Part shown: piece after piece, positions 25,287 through 33,987 of the stretch
Position numbering within the stretch: position 1 is the first letter of the stretch
Layout of the letters: every line of letters begins with the position of its first letter
IMG/VR virus record: IMGVR_UViG_3300009172_000022
Location: 1 to 35,928 of that record
DNA length: 35,928 nucleotides
Direction: 5' to 3' (one strand)
Source of the DNA: a virus
Made by a program: the position numbers and the translations under genes
Notes under the pieces: generated by a model
Database searches by the model: none
What the model was told of the DNA's origin: nothing
Seen by the model: the letters and a program-made list of their open reading frames with translations, nothing else

Positions 25287-28142
25287 ATGGCATTAAGTCC
25301 TCAATTACAACAGTTCAAAAGCTCAGGCGTGTATCGCTTAGAGTTTGACAAATCACAGACAGTTAATATCCCTGCGGAGACTATTAGATTAGTTGTAGGT
25401 AGATCTAAAAAAGGTCCTTACAACATTCCAGTCTACATCGAAAACGTTGAACAATTCATTCAAATTTTCGGAAGCATCGATAAGTCATTAGAAAAAAAGG
25501 GAATGTATTTCCACAGATCAGCGATTGAAACTCTTTCGAGAGGGCCAATTTTAGCTTTAAACTTAACAGTTGCTGATGCTTCAGATAGAGTTGCAATGGT
25601 ATCACCAGTAACCAACTCTTCACAAGAAGGTTTAGGAGATATTCCACAGAGTGTACAATACAGTACAGTTTTCGATACCGATAAATTCTGGGTTCCTTCA
25701 GATTTAAAAGTATTACAAACTGCTGGAAACACAACTTCTGGTTCAAACAACGCTATAACATTCACAAACATCAAACAAGATCCTATTACAATTATTGTAA
25801 GACAAGCTGCTAACACATCTGGATTTGAAATGACAGCAAGAGAATGGTACGGTGAAGCTAATATTCCTGAAGGAATTGACGCACTAGAATATGTGTCAGA
25901 TTACATGGTAGATATATTTATCTTTAAAGGTAAATTCGATGCCGTTGAATTAAATAACGATCCTACATATGGTGGAATGTTTACAGATAAAGGTTTATTA
26001 AGATCTGAATTTGCTAAATTCGCTGGATTAAGAGAAGTTACTTTATTAGCACAATACACAGGATCATTGATTCCAGAATTTATGGATAGTGAAGGTCGTC
26101 AATTATATATTGAAACCTTAGTTAACATAGAAGCTAGAAGAACTGGTTTATTCTGTGCAGTTAATGAAGATGCATTAGCACAAATCGATTTAGTAGGTAA
26201 TTCATTTGATGTATATCAAGATTATCAAGTACTTTCACACAGAGTTGATCAAAAAATTGCACCTAATGCAATTGCTGGTTTAAATAAAGTTATTAACGTA
26301 GCTGGCTCTTCAATAGTTATTGAAGCTTATGATGGTTCAGGTGCAGGTGCAGATATTCTATTAGGAAGTTGGTTATATGGATCAGTTTCTGGAGAATATG
26401 TACAAGTTACAGATATAGATTACGACGGTGCTAATACAACATATACTTTATCAGGAACACCAAGTTCTTCATACGAAGAATATTCAACTGCAGGACAAAC
26501 TGCAACTCAAATTGGTAGTTCAGTTGCTGTTTCTGTTGATGAAAACGGAAAAATAGTTATCGATATAGCTAGCTTAAGTGCAGCAAACGGACTAGCCGGT
26601 GGAGGAAAATTCTTAAAAAGTGTCAATAGCGGCGAATTCGTAGAAGTTGCACTAGGCGGTATTGCTGAAAACGTTGATTATGACGGTGTTGCAAAAACAG
26701 TAATCTCTCCAGCAGGTTCAATAGGATTTGATCCAACTGAGTATACTGGTAATTTAACACAGATTTTACCGTTTGCTCACGTTCCAACTCCAAACCTTGC
26801 TCAATTCGATATAGGTGAAAATGACAGAGCAGTATTATTCCCAGCAGGTGGAGGAGCATATGCTTATGATAACACTTCAGCTGGAGAATTTACAATTACA
26901 GTAGCAACAACATCTAACGTATTTGATTGGACAACAATCAAAGTAGGCATGTATATACAAGCTGATAAAGATGACGGTACTGCAATTAAAGCTGCAAGAA
27001 TTACAAGAATTAAAAAAGAAACAGAAGGAGCTAACACATTATATAGATTCAGTGTTTCTAGACACAATGTTGTAAGACCTAAATATGCTCTTAAGAGATA
27101 TGAAGATTCTACATCAACATATACTATGTTCCCATTAGTTGGTGCAACTCAAACTGAGAAATCAATTAAAGAATTATTAGATGTAATGATTCCAGGAACA
27201 GGTTTAGCAAATACATTAGTTGACAAAGACGCGATTACGTTTAGATATGTAATTGATACATTCGGTTCAGAAGGACTTGGAGGTACAATTCTTAATAAAG
27301 AACAATTATCTCAACTTTGTAAAGAAAGACAAAACGCATCTGCAATTCTTAATGCACCAATGGTGAAAGAATTTAAAGCTGCTACTAATCCTTCTTTTAA
27401 AGATAGCTTAGGTGTATTCCAAGCAAGATTAGTTTCAACTGGAGGTAATTTAGATCTTAACCCAGACTCAATTTATACATTACCAAGCATCAATGAAGGT
27501 GCAAACTTCGGATTCTATTATGGTCCTGGTTTAAATGTATTAGAAAACGGAAGAGTTAAGGTAATTCCACCAGCTGCATACGTTTCTAACAACTATATCG
27601 ATAAATATTTAGACGCATTACCATGGTCTATCATCGCAGGACCAAGAAGAGGTGTTGTAGGTGGAACAGGTGTACAAGGTCTAGAATTTGCATTCGATAA
27701 AGCAGATAGAGATTTCTTAGAGCCATTCGGATATAACCCAATCGTCTTCGAAAGAGGCGTTGGTTTAACTATCAAAGGTAATAAGACTGCACAACAAGGT
27801 ATTCAATCAGCATTGTCTTCAGCTCACGTGAGAGAAGCGATGATCTACATTGAAGACGGTTTAGCAGAAATCTTGAAAAACTATTTATTTGAATTTAACA
27901 ATGCTCAAACAAGATTAGAGATTAAAACTTTAGCAGATTCATTTATGGAATCAGTTAAAAAAGACGGAGGTGTATACGACTATAGAAACATTATGGACGG
28001 AACAAATAACACTAACGAAGTGATCGATAATAATATGGGTATTTTAGATACATTTGTTGAGCCAGTTAAAGGACTTGAAATCTTAGTATCAAGAGTAACT
28101 ATCCTGAACACAGGAGAAATCGCAACTGGAAACTTTGCATAA
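25287..28142 (+). CDS. 18: Contractile tail sheath protein gp18
   Basis: Forms the contractile sheath around the tube. The N-terminus (SPQLQQFKSSGVYRLEFD, then VVGRSKKGPYNIPVYI and FIQIFGSIDKSLEKKGMYFHRSA) and the C-terminal domain (LPWSIIAGPRRGVVGG, ERDFLEPFGYNP-like DRDFLEPFGYNP, NVLENGRVKVIPP, ALSSAHVREAMIYIEDGL) are typical of the family. At 951 residues it exceeds T4 gp18 (659) by about 290, matched by a beta-rich Gly/Ser/Thr region at roughly residues 335-630 that looks inserted between conserved parts. Own late promoter; the tube gene follows at once, as in T4. Confidence 0.95.
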   Translation: MALSPQLQQFKSSGVYRLEFDKSQTVNIPAETIRLVVGRSKKGPYNIPVYIENVEQFIQIFGSIDKSLEKKGMYFHRSAIETLSRGPILALNLTVADASDRVAMVSPVTNSSQEGLGDIPQSVQYSTVFDTDKFWVPSDLKVLQTAGNTTSGSNNAITFTNIKQDPITIIVRQAANTSGFEMTAREWYGEANIPEGIDALEYVSDYMVDIFIFKGKFDAVELNNDPTYGGMFTDKGLLRSEFAKFAGLREVTLLAQYTGSLIPEFMDSEGRQLYIETLVNIEARRTGLFCAVNEDALAQIDLVGNSFDVYQDYQVLSHRVDQKIAPNAIAGLNKVINVAGSSIVIEAYDGSGAGADILLGSWLYGSVSGEYVQVTDIDYDGANTTYTLSGTPSSSYEEYSTAGQTATQIGSSVAVSVDENGKIVIDIASLSAANGLAGGGKFLKSVNSGEFVEVALGGIAENVDYDGVAKTVISPAGSIGFDPTEYTGNLTQILPFAHVPTPNLAQFDIGENDRAVLFPAGGGAYAYDNTSAGEFTITVATTSNVFDWTTIKVGMYIQADKDDGTAIKAARITRIKKETEGANTLYRFSVSRHNVVRPKYALKRYEDSTSTYTMFPLVGATQTEKSIKELLDVMIPGTGLANTLVDKDAITFRYVIDTFGSEGLGGTILNKEQLSQLCKERQNASAILNAPMVKEFKAATNPSFKDSLGVFQARLVSTGGNLDLNPDSIYTLPSINEGANFGFYYGPGLNVLENGRVKVIPPAAYVSNNYIDKYLDALPWSIIAGPRRGVVGGTGVQGLEFAFDKADRDFLEPFGYNPIVFERGVGLTIKGNKTAQQGIQSALSSAHVREAMIYIEDGLAEILKNYLFEFNNAQTRLEIKTLADSFMESVKKDGGVYDYRNIMDGTNNTNEVIDNNMGILDTFVEPVKGLEILVSRVTILNTGEIATGNFA

Positions 28143-28180: not shown

Positions 28181-28738
28181 ATGGCTTTACCACATTATTC
28201 AGAGGACCAAACGTCCAAAAAAGGCAAAAATTTTGAACCAGTACAGGCTAACCTGTTTGAGGTGACAATATTACCACCAGACGGAGTTTCCGGACAGGAA
28301 TTGTTATTACAACATGTTAAATCTATATCAGGTTTAGATGCTATGCATAAAGATGTTGCAGCAATTGAACAAAAATATAAATTTGCTACTAGATCTTACG
28401 CAGGAATGACAGATCAAACAGCATTAGATATTACTGTTGCATTTACATTAAACTTAAATGATTCTAACCAAGCTTACTTGTATAAAACACTAAGACAATG
28501 GTATAGATCACAATACAATCCAGAAACTGGCGAAATGGGTCTTAAAAAGAACTATGTCGGTACTATGGTAATTGTACAATTCAACAGAGAAGGTGACATC
28601 TATAGAAAGATTACACTTGATGATTGTTTCATCATATCTGGTTTACCAATGACTGGTACATTAGATTATTCAACACCTGATGCTGCAGAATTAGAAGTTC
28701 AATGGAGAGCTGATGTTTGGGCAGAAGAAATAAACTAA
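28181..28738 (+). CDS. 19: Tail tube protein gp19
   Basis: Subunit of the inner tail tube. The 185 residues (T4 163) follow the gp19 fold: an N-terminal strand with ANLFEVTILPP, a central KYKFATRSYAGMTDQTALDITVAF strand pair (quoted here in two parts, KYKFATRSYAGM and TALDITVAF), a helix AYLYKTLRQWYRSQYNPETG, and the closing strands KITLDDCFIISGLPMTGTLD and EVQWRADVW. It follows the sheath gene with its own late promoter, so tube can be made in equal or higher amount than sheath, and a strong terminator follows. Confidence 0.95.
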   Translation: MALPHYSEDQTSKKGKNFEPVQANLFEVTILPPDGVSGQELLLQHVKSISGLDAMHKDVAAIEQKYKFATRSYAGMTDQTALDITVAFTLNLNDSNQAYLYKTLRQWYRSQYNPETGEMGLKKNYVGTMVIVQFNREGDIYRKITLDDCFIISGLPMTGTLDYSTPDAAELEVQWRADVWAEEIN

Positions 28739-29052: not shown

Positions 29053-30054
29053 ATGAGCGATAATAACAAAAAGAAAGATAGCGATGCTATGAAAGCTTTA
29101 GATGCTAAGGATCAAATCAATCAAAGAACTCAAGATTCTCCACAAGATACCGGAGCCGATGCAATGCTTGAAGAAATTTCTTCAACTGGATTAGGCAAGG
29201 TAAAAATGGATAATTTTGGTCAAGCAAGACCTGAAAAATCTGCAGATGCTACTTTAGGGTGGCATGTTCTAGATAAGTCAACGCTTCCGTCGACTGGTAA
29301 ATTTTATCCTGAAAATCTATTAATTCAGATTAGATCTGCTAAGGCTAAAGAAATTAGACATTTTTCAACAATGGACGAAAATAACTATATCGATATGGAA
29401 GATAAGTTAAATCATATTGTAGAATCATGTACTCAGTTGATATACGATAATCAAAGATTATCATATAAAGATCTTTTAGAAGAAGATAGAATTATTATTC
29501 TATTAAGTATTAGAGATTTATCATTTCCGGAACCTGAAAATAAAATTATTTTAAAAGGTAAAACCGAAAAAACAAAAAAACATGTAGACATTGATCTTTC
29601 TGTTGCAAACTTAGTCCCATCTGTAGTCCCTAGCGAAATAGAAGCATACTATAGTTCTAAAGAAAGAACATATATCATCAAGACAAAATCAGCTGGTGTA
29701 GTTAGAATGAAGCCACCCACAATTGGTGTTATGGAAGAAGTAACTTCATATTTAAGAGATAGACAAGAAAAGGATATTGAATTAGATAAAGCATTTGTAC
29801 AAGTTTTACCATACATCGCAGATGACTGGAGAAAATTAAACCTTCCAGGTATTTTTAACCTAGAAGTTGATTACAAATCATGGAACGAAAAGAAGTTTAT
29901 GGTAATTTATAGGCTAGCAGAAAAAATGAAAATAGGAGTTGAAACAACACTTGAAATGGAATTCGACGGGGAGATTGCAAAAGCCCCTCTTGATTTCCCA
30001 GGTGGCATCAAAAGTCTTTTCATTATTTCAGATCTCGCTGGAGAATTACTTTAA
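29053..30054 (+). CDS. 26: Baseplate hub/tail assembly protein gp26-like (frameshift upstream part)
   Basis: The core matches the gp26 family: LPSTGKFYPENLLIQIRSAKAKEIRHFS split as LPSTGKFYP and IRSAKAKEIRHFS, then an IDMEDKLNHIVESC helix, DLLEEDRIIILLSIRDLSF and later a segment on recognition of the tube/baseplate (FNLEVDYKSWNEKKFMVIYRLA). T4 gp26 (208 aa) helps assemble the baseplate hub. At 333 residues it has an N-terminal polar extension of about 70. The gene ends ...GAA TTA CTT TAA G, a sequence like the RF2 +1 frameshift site, and a second frame encoding a gp51-like tail begins right there. Starts two bases after the RHH gene. Confidence 0.75.
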   Translation: MSDNNKKKDSDAMKALDAKDQINQRTQDSPQDTGADAMLEEISSTGLGKVKMDNFGQARPEKSADATLGWHVLDKSTLPSTGKFYPENLLIQIRSAKAKEIRHFSTMDENNYIDMEDKLNHIVESCTQLIYDNQRLSYKDLLEEDRIIILLSIRDLSFPEPENKIILKGKTEKTKKHVDIDLSVANLVPSVVPSEIEAYYSSKERTYIIKTKSAGVVRMKPPTIGVMEEVTSYLRDRQEKDIELDKAFVQVLPYIADDWRKLNLPGIFNLEVDYKSWNEKKFMVIYRLAEKMKIGVETTLEMEFDGEIAKAPLDFPGGIKSLFIISDLAGELL

Positions 30055-30055
30055 G
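30040..30055 (+). promoter_or_regulatory. Candidate programmed +1 frameshift site (CTT TAA G)
   Basis: Codon CTT (30049-30051) followed by stop TAA and G. Slippage by +1 puts tRNA-Leu on TTT and continues with AAG (30053). GGAG lies at 30040-30043, five bases upstream, in a genome that otherwise lacks such Shine-Dalgarno-like sequences. The arrangement copies prfB (CUU UGA C with an upstream Shine-Dalgarno). Confidence 0.65.
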
Positions 30056-30301
30056 ACTAAGTTCTACCTGGGTATACATCTTAGAATGCAGCCCTCGGAG
30101 ATTGAAGAAATGTATTACTATGAATATTGGTATTATGTTCAGAATCTCCAAGAGTATATTAAAACTAAGAATAAGCAAAACGAGGATCAACAAGAACAGG
30201 CGAATGAACAACAGAACACAATGAGTTCTAAGTATAAAGCGCCCACGATGCCCAAGATCCCATCAATGAAAGCACCTTCTATGAAGATGCCGAAATATTA
30301 A
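30053..30301 (+). CDS. 51: gp51-like tail assembly extension, read in +1 frame after gp26
   Basis: The +1 frame is open from before the gp26 stop to 30301 and encodes KTKFYLGIHLRMQPSEIEEMYYYEYWYYVQNL (here split: KTKFYLGIHLRM, then QPSEIEEMYYYEYWYYVQNL), a pattern typical of the second half of tail assembly chaperones (a P-x-E-I-x-x-M-x-Y-x-E-Y motif as in lambda T / gp51-like proteins). The Leu-Gly-Ile-His region before the first internal ATG (30086) looks part of the domain, supporting fusion with gp26 rather than separate initiation. The fusion would be 415 residues. The C-terminus is Met/Pro/Lys-rich (APTMPKIPSMKAPSMKMPKY). Alternative: a separate 71-residue protein from ATG 30086. Confidence 0.65.
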   Translation, partial: KTKFYLGIHLRMQPSEIEEMYYYEYWYYVQNLQEYIKTKNKQNEDQQEQANEQQNTMSSKYKAPTMPKIPSMKAPSMKMPKY

Positions 30302-30311: not shown

Positions 30312-30322
30312 TACAGTAGTAG

Positions 30323-30346
30323 GAAACACCACGCAAGTGGTGTTTC
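30323..30346 (+). promoter_or_regulatory. Perfect 10-bp GNRA hairpin at 5' end of tape measure transcript
   Basis: GAAACACCAC and GTGGTGTTTC pair without mismatch around a GCAA tetraloop. There is no real T-run after it (TATATATTTAAAAAA). Lying just downstream of the late promoter, it would cap the mRNA 5' end; it could also act as an upstream terminator. Confidence 0.7.
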
Positions 30347-30375
30347 TATATATTTAAAAAATACTTAATATACAT

Positions 30376-33300
30376 TTGCAATTTCCAAAGTTTTTACAAA
30401 GCGCCTTTGATAGACTAGGTAACGATCAAGAATCGATGAAGTCAGTAGCAGCTAATACTGCAACAACTGCCGCTTCGGTTACTGTGGGCGGTGATCTCTA
30501 TGAAAAATTAGATCACTTAGTAACCGCTATTGAAAACATGAAAGGTGGTATCGGAGGTACCACAAATCTTAAAGAAGCATTAGCACTTAGAATAGTTACA
30601 CCTGCACTAAAGCCAATAGGTTTAGGTTTAGGTTTTATTATTGATGCATTAAATAATGCACCTGGTGGTAAAGAATTAGGCAAAAAAATGGACGCCATAG
30701 TTGGTGGATTAGTTAAATTAGGCCAAGTCGGTAAGGCTATTTTATCATTTGCAGGTTATATTATATTAGCAATACCATTTCTTATGGTAGCTGCCGCAAC
30801 TATTCCAATATGGGCACCCTTAATATTTATTATTACTAAAACATTAATGTGGGCTGCTAAATCATTAGATAAGAAAACACTAAAATCGTTAAATGATTTA
30901 GGTGAAGTAGGTATTAATCTTTTAGTATTAGCTGGTTCACTAGCATTAATTGGACTAATAGCAGTTCCTGCAATTAAAGGGGCGCTTACAGCTGCTGTAA
31001 TAATATTAGCAGTAGGTGGAATATTTAAATTGTTACAAACAATGGATATTGCAGAAACACTAGAAGAAGTTGGACAAAATTTAATATCTGCAGGTTTAGG
31101 TATATTAGGTCTAGTGGTATTTTTAGCATTGTCTGGATTTATTTTAGAAGCAGTTGGATTTGAACCTTTAATGAAAGTTTTAGCGGTCGTTGGAGCAACA
31201 GCATTAACATTTTTTATAGTAGGTCTGTTTTCAAATCAAATAGAAAAAGGAGCTAGAGCGCTTATGTATGCCGCAGGTTCAATAATAGTCTTAGGGTTAT
31301 CACTTTTATTTATTAAATATGTATTAGGAGAATTAGGAGGCGGTGCTGGCACTGGTGATTCTATGGATCTAATGAATGCGTTACCATCATTGGGTGTAAT
31401 TATTGCAATTGGACTTATTTTTGCCATAGCTGGACAAGCAGCTGAGAGTATCGCTAAGGGTGCTTTAGCTATGATCGTTGTAGGTATTTCATTAATAGTA
31501 CTTTCATTTGGTCTAGATTTTATTAAAGATGCTGTTCCAGATTTTGACACAGGACTTGGTATATTGGCAATGGTTGGAGGATTAGCTCTTGTATTTGGTA
31601 TTGCCGGTGCAGGTCCAGTTCCCATGGCCATCGCACTAGGAGCAGGTGCATTGGCGTTAGTTGGGCTTTCTTTATTAGTAATTAGCTTAGGTTTAGCTGT
31701 AATAGGACCAGTTGTTAGTAAAATGACACTGCCACAAGCTGGCATGATTGCAATCATAATCGGTGGGTTAGCCGCTGGATTTGCAGCTGCAGGTCTCGCA
31801 TCACCTTTGATTATATTAGGTTCAGTCGCGATGATTCTAGCAGGAGGCGCAACTGTTATATTAGCAGGTGCATTAAAACTACTTTCTTTCTTAGATTTTT
31901 CATCCCTTGGTTCAATTAATGAAACAGGTAATAAAGCCTTTAATTATTCTGGACAAGTTAGTGAAGGTTTCTTAGGATTCGGTGCTGGTAGAAAGAAAAC
32001 AAATTTTGAAGTCGCGATGGATGCAATTGCAACGGGTATGTCACTCGGTCCATTACAAATAATGGGAATTTTAGCTGGAGCACCCACTTTAATTTTAGCT
32101 TCAACTGCATTAATAGGAATTGCAACAGGTCTTAGAGTATTTAAAATGATTATTGGTGATGCTGATTTACCTAGTCTTAAAACAAATATGAATTTTATTG
32201 TTTCTGGATTAGCAGAAGTATTTGCTAACGTCGGTGAAAAGTATGGAGGTGGAGGCGGTGGATTCATGGCTGCACTAAGAGGAAGTGGCGGAGAAGGTAC
32301 ATCAGTTGTAGCACAAGGTATTTCTGCAGTCGGCGGAATGGGTAGAGCACTTAAAGGTATTGCTAGAGGCGTTCAAGCCATGGCAGATCTTAAATTTCCT
32401 ACAGGATATGATAAAGATGGAAATCCAACGGGATATGAAACTATTAATTTAACAAAAGCTATTCCAAATTTAGTTGCTAATACTAAAGAGATCGTTATTG
32501 GTCTTAGTGGAGCATTTGCAGAAGTCGGCGGTGCAGAAGCTGCAAAAGGTGGTGGATGGTTTAGTAAAAACCCATATGAAAAAGGTATAGCCGTAGTTAA
32601 AAAAATGGGTGAGCCTCTTGCTAATTTAGCTAAAGGTGTTCAAGCCATGGCAAATCTTAAATTTCCTACGGCATTTGATAAAGATGGAAACCCAACTAAA
32701 TACGAAGCTATTGGTAATATACAAAAATTAAGTGGTAATTTAAAAACAAACACTAAAGCTCTTGTATTAGCATTATCTGGTGTATTTGAAGAGATTGGTA
32801 AATCAGATGCTGGAAAAGGAGGCGGCTGGTTTAGTAAATCTGATTTCGAAAGAGGTATTATGATTACAGAAATGTTATCTTCACCTTATTCTAGTTTAGC
32901 TGATTCTGTTAAAGACGTTCAGGAAATTGTTAAAGGTGTTACGAATCCTACTGAAATTAAAGAAAAAGTCGGTGCAATGATACAAGCAATCACAGCTGGC
33001 GAAGAAGATGATGTAAGTGTTATTGAGGCTAAAACAGGTTTCATTAGAGTTTTAGGTAACGTATATGAAAAGCTAGGAAAAGCTATACCATCAATAGTAG
33101 ATTCTATTGCTAAATTTACAATAGACAAAGCAAAAGCATTTGCAAGTATATTTGGAGGTGAATCACCCGCTAAATTATTTGAATCTAAAACTAAATTTAT
33201 GAACTCGTTACAGACTTCATATCTTAGAATGGCGATTGCTATTCCATTAATAGTCGGTTCCATTAATTCAGTAGAGGCTGAACAATTAGAATCGTTTTCT

Positions 33301-33987
33301 TCAGTATATGGTGGATCTATGGCAGGCGTTGAAGACGCAACATTAACTACAAGAAACAACTTATTTACTGCAGTTGGAAGTGCTTATGAAAAAGTCGGTA
33401 CTGCAAGTGGTAAAATAGCAACAGCTATAAATTCACTAGATGAAGATAAATTAGTAAAATATAAAGGACTATTTATAGGTGATGTTAGTAGACTTAGACC
33501 AATCGCGGGATATGAAGCACAAACAGAACTATGGGAGGCAATAGGTGAAAATACAGGAAAGGCTTCCAGTAGTATGCCTGGTATAACAGAAGCTATTAAT
33601 AATCTAGATATGTCTAAATTAGTTGAATCTAGAAAAATGTTTGAAGCTCTTGGAGTATTAGCAAATGGAGGTTCAGCATCTGATATATTAGAAAAAATGG
33701 GAGAATCTTTAGAAGATGCAATGGAAAGATTGGCAGATATTTTAATGGAATTCCAAACTTCTGTCGGTGAAGCAAGTTCAGGACAAGAAGGTATGTTAAC
33801 TCAATTGGCTAGTATGCCTGGAGATTTCTTAGGAGCTATAAGGCAAGGTGCTGGCGCTGGTGGCTCTGGAGACAGCGGCAAAATTACTAAAGCAATTACT
33901 GATCTTCGTAGAGCATTACAAGATACTGGAATTAAAGTAAAAGAATTACCTTCTAGTAATGCGTTAGATATACTGAATAGAGGATAA
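30376..33987 (+). CDS. 29: Tail tape measure protein (gp29-like position)
   Basis: At 1203 residues this is the longest gene in the window and follows the tail assembly pair, the usual place of the tape measure. Residues about 70-505 contain at least ten hydrophobic segments (e.g. LLVLAGSLALIGLIAVPAIKG split at IGLIAV, and many Gly/Ala/Ile stretches), typical of tape measures that insert into the host membrane. The C-terminal half is helical with two copies of an 89-residue repeat. T4 gp29 is only 590 residues, so the tail may be longer. No ATG exists between the upstream stop (30355) and residue 21; TTG at 30376 is the likely start, ATA codons (30361, 30370) or ATG 30436 are alternatives. 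T4 similarity is by position and type, not sequence. Confidence 0.8.
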   Translation: MQFPKFLQSAFDRLGNDQESMKSVAANTATTAASVTVGGDLYEKLDHLVTAIENMKGGIGGTTNLKEALALRIVTPALKPIGLGLGFIIDALNNAPGGKELGKKMDAIVGGLVKLGQVGKAILSFAGYIILAIPFLMVAAATIPIWAPLIFIITKTLMWAAKSLDKKTLKSLNDLGEVGINLLVLAGSLALIGLIAVPAIKGALTAAVIILAVGGIFKLLQTMDIAETLEEVGQNLISAGLGILGLVVFLALSGFILEAVGFEPLMKVLAVVGATALTFFIVGLFSNQIEKGARALMYAAGSIIVLGLSLLFIKYVLGELGGGAGTGDSMDLMNALPSLGVIIAIGLIFAIAGQAAESIAKGALAMIVVGISLIVLSFGLDFIKDAVPDFDTGLGILAMVGGLALVFGIAGAGPVPMAIALGAGALALVGLSLLVISLGLAVIGPVVSKMTLPQAGMIAIIIGGLAAGFAAAGLASPLIILGSVAMILAGGATVILAGALKLLSFLDFSSLGSINETGNKAFNYSGQVSEGFLGFGAGRKKTNFEVAMDAIATGMSLGPLQIMGILAGAPTLILASTALIGIATGLRVFKMIIGDADLPSLKTNMNFIVSGLAEVFANVGEKYGGGGGGFMAALRGSGGEGTSVVAQGISAVGGMGRALKGIARGVQAMADLKFPTGYDKDGNPTGYETINLTKAIPNLVANTKEIVIGLSGAFAEVGGAEAAKGGGWFSKNPYEKGIAVVKKMGEPLANLAKGVQAMANLKFPTAFDKDGNPTKYEAIGNIQKLSGNLKTNTKALVLALSGVFEEIGKSDAGKGGGWFSKSDFERGIMITEMLSSPYSSLADSVKDVQEIVKGVTNPTEIKEKVGAMIQAITAGEEDDVSVIEAKTGFIRVLGNVYEKLGKAIPSIVDSIAKFTIDKAKAFASIFGGESPAKLFESKTKFMNSLQTSYLRMAIAIPLIVGSINSVEAEQLESFSSVYGGSMAGVEDATLTTRNNLFTAVGSAYEKVGTASGKIATAINSLDEDKLVKYKGLFIGDVSRLRPIAGYEAQTELWEAIGENTGKASSSMPGITEAINNLDMSKLVESRKMFEALGVLANGGSASDILEKMGESLEDAMERLADILMEFQTSVGEASSGQEGMLTQLASMPGDFLGAIRQGAGAGGSGDSGKITKAITDLRRALQDTGIKVKELPSSNALDILNRG
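32371..32440 (+). repeat. Tape measure repeat, copy 1
   Basis: Encodes VQAMADLKFPTGYDKDGNP; the same segment recurs exactly 267 bases (89 codons) downstream with few changes, and a GGGWFSK motif trails each copy. Confidence 0.75.
32638..32707 (+). repeat. Tape measure repeat, copy 2
   Basis: Encodes VQAMANLKFPTAFDKDGNP, 267 bases after copy 1; trailing GGGWFSK recurs as well. Confidence 0.75.

Follow-up and report, generated by a model that had tools for sequence, protein, structure and literature searches.

How the gp51-like sequence that follows a gp26-like tail assembly chaperone gene is translated is the question raised by this locus, which lies in a 35,928-base IMG/VR fragment (record IMGVR_UViG_3300009172_000022; hereafter the window). 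The first-pass annotation proposed an RF2-like +1 frameshift at the CTT TAA that ends gp26, stimulated by an upstream GGAG and sensitive to release factor, giving the junction ...SLFIISDLAGELL-KTK.... Comparison with relatives and with other T4-like phages indicated that a shift into the +1 register very probably joins gp26 to gp51, as proposed; its placement at the stop was not supported.

The end of gp26 overlaps a gp51-like reading frame

The 3' terminus of gp26 reads GAA TTA CTT TAA G and the +1 frame is open there, as first described; the extension frame reads TTT AAG at this place (Phe-Lys) and continues as KTKFYLGIHLRMQPSEIEEMYYYEYWYY... immediately after the stop. The GGAG was also found where reported, 5 nt upstream of CTT (30040-30043), and the genome is indeed poor in Shine-Dalgarno sequences, with GGAG, GAGG or AGGA within 20 nt of the start in none of the 34 forward genes of the window. 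The +1 frame was open from approximately 39 codons upstream of the gp26 stop through position 30301. Among the window genes, gp26 alone showed a long +1 opening on either side of its stop, 39 codons before it and 82 codons after it. Since this opening starts upstream of the stop, it changed our reading of the junction.

The gp26/gp51 pair is flanked upstream by sheath and tube genes, assigned by family matches, and downstream by an ORF with the position and length of a tape measure gene (Table 1). No tape-measure family match was found for this ORF among the Pfam and PHROG families. Zero-frame gp26 scored 19.3 bits against Pfam T4_baseplate (PF12322), below the cut-off of 24.5 bits, which was passed by gp26 of the relatives LR756500, PAU and LR756502. 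A PDB sequence search using gp26 and T4 gp51 as queries gave no match. Between the extension and the downstream ORF, the window contains a strong terminator-like hairpin, GGAAACACCAC-GCAA-GTGGTGTTTCT (30322-30347).

Table 1 Features of the gp26/gp51 locus in the window.
Feature	Position	Strand	Description
Tail sheath gene	25287..28142	+	phrog_34521 tail sheath, 1.6e-117; PF17482, 2e-8
Tail tube protein gene	28181..28738	+	phrog_45 tail tube, 3.6e-7
gp26-like tail assembly chaperone ORF	29053..30054	+	Zero-frame product of 333 aa; PF12322, E=0.001; phrog_36717, 2.5e-22
Candidate cis stimulator	29983..30015	+	Almost no synonymous change; AGGTGG ~10 nt before the slip codon; putative function
Predicted slip site CTT TTC	30016..30021	+	Would move ribosomes into the +1-equivalent frame; 36 nt upstream of the gp26 stop
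gp51-like extension, +1-equivalent frame	30020..30301	+	93 residues from TCA 30020; stop TAA 30299-30301; phrog_634, T4 gp51
Dual-coding overlap	30022..30051	+	Zero frame IISDLAGELL; +1 frame (S)LFQISLENYF
Zero-frame gp26 end CTT TAA	30049..30054	+	CTT 30049-30051, TAA 30052-30054; CTT-stop kept in the close clade only
ATG in extension frame	30086..30088	+	Internal Met, not the extension start
1203-aa ORF, tape-measure position	30376..33987	+	Position and length only

The extension frame is kept in all lineages found

Close relatives were collected in two overlapping fetches of 80 loci each, the first with 65-82% identity to the window, giving more than 100 close loci overall. In the first fetch, every locus reaching the gp26 stop carried ...CTT TAA GAC (1 of the 80 ended before the stop), and those with continuing sequence read KTKFYLG(I/V)HLRMQPSE in the +1 frame after it; in the second fetch, the junction was conserved in 78 of 80 loci. 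The distant set was made of MA9V-2, MaF61, LR756500, PAU, PTm1, Lak phages, LR756502, LR745206, LR756504, LR756501 and pT24, and a huge-phage clade contributed 64 loci with 36 unique junctions. Using gp26 of LR756500, MA9V-2 or PTm1 as a query returned no additional relatives. A tblastn search with the 82-aa extension alone gave no match, whereas the LR756500 extension as query did find matches. The window comes from a Bacteroidota-type phage: the recorded hosts of the relatives are Bacteroidota, several metagenomic phages, including the window, having no recorded host. PAU is filed under Sphingomonas, but its host is a Sphingobacterium (PMC3738902).

A gp51-like extension in the +1-equivalent frame was present in the close clade, the huge-phage clade and nine further lineages, that is, in all lineages found. 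The gp26 junction is therefore real and not a chance opening, and the same extension frame in all relatives makes a frameshift fusion well supported. The close-clade overlap contained only five variable sites or alleles among 51 unique relatives: three nonsynonymous in the zero frame and synonymous in the +1 frame, one the reverse, and one synonymous in both. With so few variants, three of them silent in the +1 frame while changing the zero frame, constraint acts on both frames, which is what synthesis of both products would predict. In the same clade, the +1-frame codons between the gp26 stop and ATG 30086 varied almost only at synonymous positions.

Conservation of the +1 protein begins upstream of the stop

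Alignment of the relatives for CTT-TAR, the check suggested by the first-pass annotation, gave a split answer: CTT TAA is nearly invariant in the close clade and lost in distant relatives, whose stop contexts were ATT TAA, GAG TAA, CTT TAA, TCT TAA, TTA TGA, GAA TAA and AAA TAA. The GGAG was missing from distant relatives that keep the extension frame. Two elements were conserved across lineages instead: the +1 motif (V/I)FSLFQ(I/V)xLxNxF, encoded before the stop, and, just ahead of this motif, the zero-frame codon pair NTT TTY. NTT TTY was found at the homologous place in nine lineages, and LR756501 kept it although the following SLFQ is lost. The exceptions were pT24 (ATT GTC) and the Lak phages (ATA TTC), which shows that not every lineage has the slip motif. 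In pT24 (L159), which keeps the extension frame, ATT GTC TTT takes the place of NTT TTY, and an AAA_A just upstream offers an alternative slip. Over all window coding sequences, ATT TTT was counted 5 times as a codon pair (13.8 expected) and CTT TTC once (2.0 expected), this single occurrence being the candidate slip site.

Selection on the +1 protein was assessed in seven lineages by shuffling zero-frame synonymous codons (4000 randomisations). Conservation of the +1 protein after NTT reached z=8.5, a value attained by none of the 4000 randomisations, and +1-frame stops in the overlap numbered 0 against 3.5 expected (P=0.0085). It was weak just upstream of the slip motif (z=2.3) and absent 12-24 codons upstream (z=0.3). 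Conservation of the +1 protein thus begins at the slip motif, 11 codons upstream of the gp26 stop. The residues concerned, SLFQISLENYF, were conserved far above expectation and match the T4 gp51/phrog_634 family. Their selection argues against a shift at the stop, which would leave them untranslated. Nucleotide constraint alone is unlikely to cause this conservation, because the +1 residues stay alike between lineages whose DNA differs widely, and because phrog_634 and T4 gp51 match the same residues.

Collectively, these comparisons make it highly likely that a gp26-gp51 fusion is produced by a frame change at CTT TTC, 36 nt before the stop, even though this site is not a canonical tandem slip heptamer. 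Other candidates were rejected. As a slip site, AAA_A (30010-30013) was found among the lineages only in the window, pT24 and LR756504; a run of four T is short for transcriptional slippage; and CTT TAA was discarded on conservation and homology.

The predicted fusion matches gp51 through its junction

The fusion matched phrog_634, 'baseplate hub assembly catalyst', at 8.2e-7, starting at the Ser after the slip site. We built a profile HMM from -1 fusions and T4-type gp51 proteins, leaving out Bacteroidota phages. The window product of a -2 shift at CTT TTC scored 24.1 bits, that of a +1 shift there 19.6 bits and that of a shift at the stop 11.7 bits, while the post-stop part alone gave 10.3 bits and gp26 alone -1.2 bits. 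The site preference was the same for L033, L058, L083, L084 and L085; in the LR756502 clade, LR756504 and LR756501 scores were too low for the HMM to separate the sites. By both the phrog_634 and the independent HMM match, the extension belongs to the gp51 C-terminal family. Profile comparison by hhalign aligned the fusion with gp51 over its full length, without a break at the junction (one comparison gave E=1.7e-5 at a probability of 55%).

The same gene pair was examined in other T4-like phages. In P-SSM2, gp26 and a phrog_634 ORF overlap in the -1 frame, and T TTT TTC was found in register, 3 nt before the stop, in all 65 unique cyanophage junctions. Phages of Desulfovibrio, Rhizobium, Vibrio and Aeromonas and another Synechococcus phage have the extension in the -1 frame at (T/C)TT TT(C/T/G); in Aeromonas phage phiA8-29, a -1-frame stop immediately upstream limits the shift to CTT TTC and the next two codons. 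A zero-frame motif, G/S-(I/L/V)-x-x-(L/F/I)-F, is common to these T4-like phages and identifies CTT TTC of the window as the homologous site. Sequence comparison shows the frame relation, protein-level selection from the slip site on, the slip motif and the homology to -1 sites.

A candidate stimulator lies upstream of the slip site

Across 22 non-redundant relatives, the same-codon fraction in 29983..30015 was 0.94-0.98, compared with 0.60 in the gene body. In the close clade, the last 24 gp26 codons were synonymously near-frozen (0.94-1.00 versus 0.60); the corresponding stretch of the second clade was its last 30 codons (0.80-0.96 versus 0.56). Both large clades have 12-16 codons upstream of the slip site with nearly frozen synonymous codons, making a cis element likely, and 29983..30015 is a probable stimulator of the shift. 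No consistent fold was found when conserved RNA structure was sought as a stimulator across relatives, z-scores being mixed, and Rfam gave sub-threshold matches only.

SD-like purine runs occur approximately 10 nt upstream of the slip site in several lineages. Spacing of this order between Shine-Dalgarno and slip site is that of backward shifts (dnaX-type sites), which counts in favour of a -2 slip. A stimulator of Shine-Dalgarno type is doubtful, because conserved Gly codons underlie these purine runs and the anti-Shine-Dalgarno of Bacteroidota ribosomes is concealed (PMC8710568). Chryseobacterium, the host group of MA9V, has an altered anti-SD and lacks the prfB frameshift (PMC8710568); MA9V keeps the slip site despite this host, which argues against an SD-dependent, prfB-like mechanism. 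The LR756502 clade (L088-L157) carries a perfect SD-like sequence, GAGGAGGTC, nearly invariant in DNA, approximately 42 nt upstream of the slip site, too distant for a usual stimulator.

Direction of the slip and alternative explanations

On the model we favour, most ribosomes on gp26 would continue past CTT TTC to make gp26, the counterpart of lambda gpG, and a fraction would slip there into the +1-equivalent frame to make the gp26-gp51 fusion, the counterpart of gpGT, which would help tail assembly around the tape measure. We infer from the comparisons that the fusion is very probably made, as well as its direction of slip, the product ratio and its role. A -2 and a +1 event at CTT TTC end in the same frame, so sequence alone cannot tell them apart. 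We lean towards a -2 slip, in which the peptidyl-tRNA-Phe would move from UUC to UUU within NUUUUC. Re-pairing on UUU by tRNA-Phe is possible whatever the N (A, C and G were seen), homologous sites in other T4-like phages shift backward, and the -2 product scored above the +1 product in most HMM-resolved lineages. The predicted -2 junction peptide is ...GGIKSLFSLFQISLENYFK, with Phe present as in ...GIKSLFSLFQ..., which only a -2 event gives.

At this CTT TTC, the tRNA on CUU (or AUU/GUU) could instead slip by +1, with the predicted peptide ...GGIKSLSLFQISLENYFK; such a slip appears rather unlikely. In its favour, the CUU tRNA is able to pair anew with UUU, phage examples of forward shifts are Listeria PSA tsh and, very likely, HSTV-2 (PMC5009743), the +1 product of PTm1 scored 19.9 bits against 15.9 bits for -2, and UAA is preceded by UUU or CUU in Lak-type relatives. 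Several lineages have AUU, however, and one locus GUU, and the tRNAs for these codons are poor partners for UUU; nothing obvious would stall the A site, UUC being an ordinary codon; and both the usual HMM ranking and the backward movement at homologous sites run against a forward slip.

A shift at CTT TAA itself has in its favour that CTT TAA G, the open +1 frame and the upstream GGAG are all present and invariant in the close clade, that F. johnsoniae prfB works by the same logic (PMC8710568), and that Lak-type relatives end TTT TAA T or CTT TAA T. The loss of CTT-stop and GGAG in distant relatives keeping the frame, the reach of +1 selection and phrog_634/T4 gp51 homology 11 codons upstream, and a GGAG spacing of 5 nt rather than 3 nt make it very improbable for the window, and the proposed release-factor mechanism finds no support in stop contexts that vary. 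The Lak-type phages (L086, L087, L346) have the extension in the +1 frame without the SLFQ motif before the stop, and a stop-codon +1 shift could operate in them. It also seems improbable that no frameshift occurs and that the extension is made separately, by ribosomes that reinitiate past the gp26 stop or start internally in the extension frame. ATG 30086 lies downstream of the stop, the LR756502 clade has an in-frame ATG within the overlap, and the second ORF is annotated as its own gene in PAU, PTm1, MA9V-2 and P-SSM2; in P-SSM2, an ATG 2 nt after the gp26 stop also permits reinitiation. Against this, extension-frame selection starts well upstream of ATG 30086, contradicting the idea that gp51 is made only from that codon, which the first-pass annotation had named as fatal to its junction. 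No extension-frame start codon is conserved across lineages, the canonical -1 heptamer stands at the same site in every cyanophage junction, and T4 gp51 is an in-frame two-domain protein.

Returning to a -2 slip at CTT TTC, we tentatively suggest that a T4-related Bacteroidota phage lineage may have moved an ancestral -1 shift to -2 at the same NUUUUC site, with one Phe tRNA, aided by an upstream non-Shine-Dalgarno element. This would fit the hidden anti-Shine-Dalgarno of the hosts.

Comparison with known systems

The comparisons suggest that many T4-family phages use a tail-chaperone frameshift. Its direction would differ by lineage at one homologous site, being -1 in phages of cyanobacteria and proteobacteria and in a Desulfovibrio phage, and +1/-2 in Bacteroidota phages. 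A series of this kind lends itself to studying what determines the direction of a frameshift and whether properties of the host ribosome play a part. The comparisons further imply that ORFs annotated as 'gp51' or 'baseplate hub assembly catalyst' would in many cases be truncated halves of a fusion; none of the papers searched linked the latter name to frameshifting.

The CUU-stop at the gp26 end resembles that of prfB (RF2), whose frameshift is common in Bacteroidia and in F. johnsoniae has an SD-like element 3 nt from the slip codon, AGGAGGUAUCUUUGA (PMC8710568). Here, the CUU-stop lies away from the supported shift site, neither the stop context nor the SD-like element is conserved, extension-frame coding starts upstream of the stop, and the genes are unrelated. 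In phage Mu, a -2 net shift is described in the contractile-tail chaperone gene (Xu et al. 2004, as reported in PMC2628397). A -2 slip at CTT TTC would share its net direction and the contractile-tail setting, and here the shift would be a Phe tRNA movement from UUC to UUU.

T4 is given as the exception to the G-T frameshift rule (PMC5009743). Its gp26 and gp51 both match PF12322, and gp51 and the fusion align collinearly through the junction, but they are encoded by two separate paralogous genes on opposite strands (L091 5803-7229). T4 gp51 resembles the in-frame 'GT' form, which suggests that gene duplication replaced the frameshift in T4. P-SSM2 and related cyanophages (L177-L257) share the gene pair, the slip position and an extension overlapping gp26 in another frame. 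They differ in having a canonical U_UUU_UUC heptamer, the -1 frame and a GGAGGG approximately 10 nt upstream, and so resemble a canonical -1 pair though annotated as two genes.

As with lambda gpG/gpGT, the chaperone gene of the window lies between the tail tube gene and the gene in tape-measure position, with a short product and a putative frameshift-extended one. Overlap of the two ORFs in different frames is conserved across relatives, and a conserved slippery site, NTT TTY, stands at the start of the overlap in nine lineages (pT24 and Lak excepted). The lambda shift is -1, whereas here the family is that of T4 gp26/gp51, the target frame is +1/-2 and the slip site is NUU UUY. From these sequence comparisons, gp26/gp51 very probably represents, within the T4 gp26/gp51 family, a G/GT-type frameshift of tail chaperones and a variant of the lambda type.
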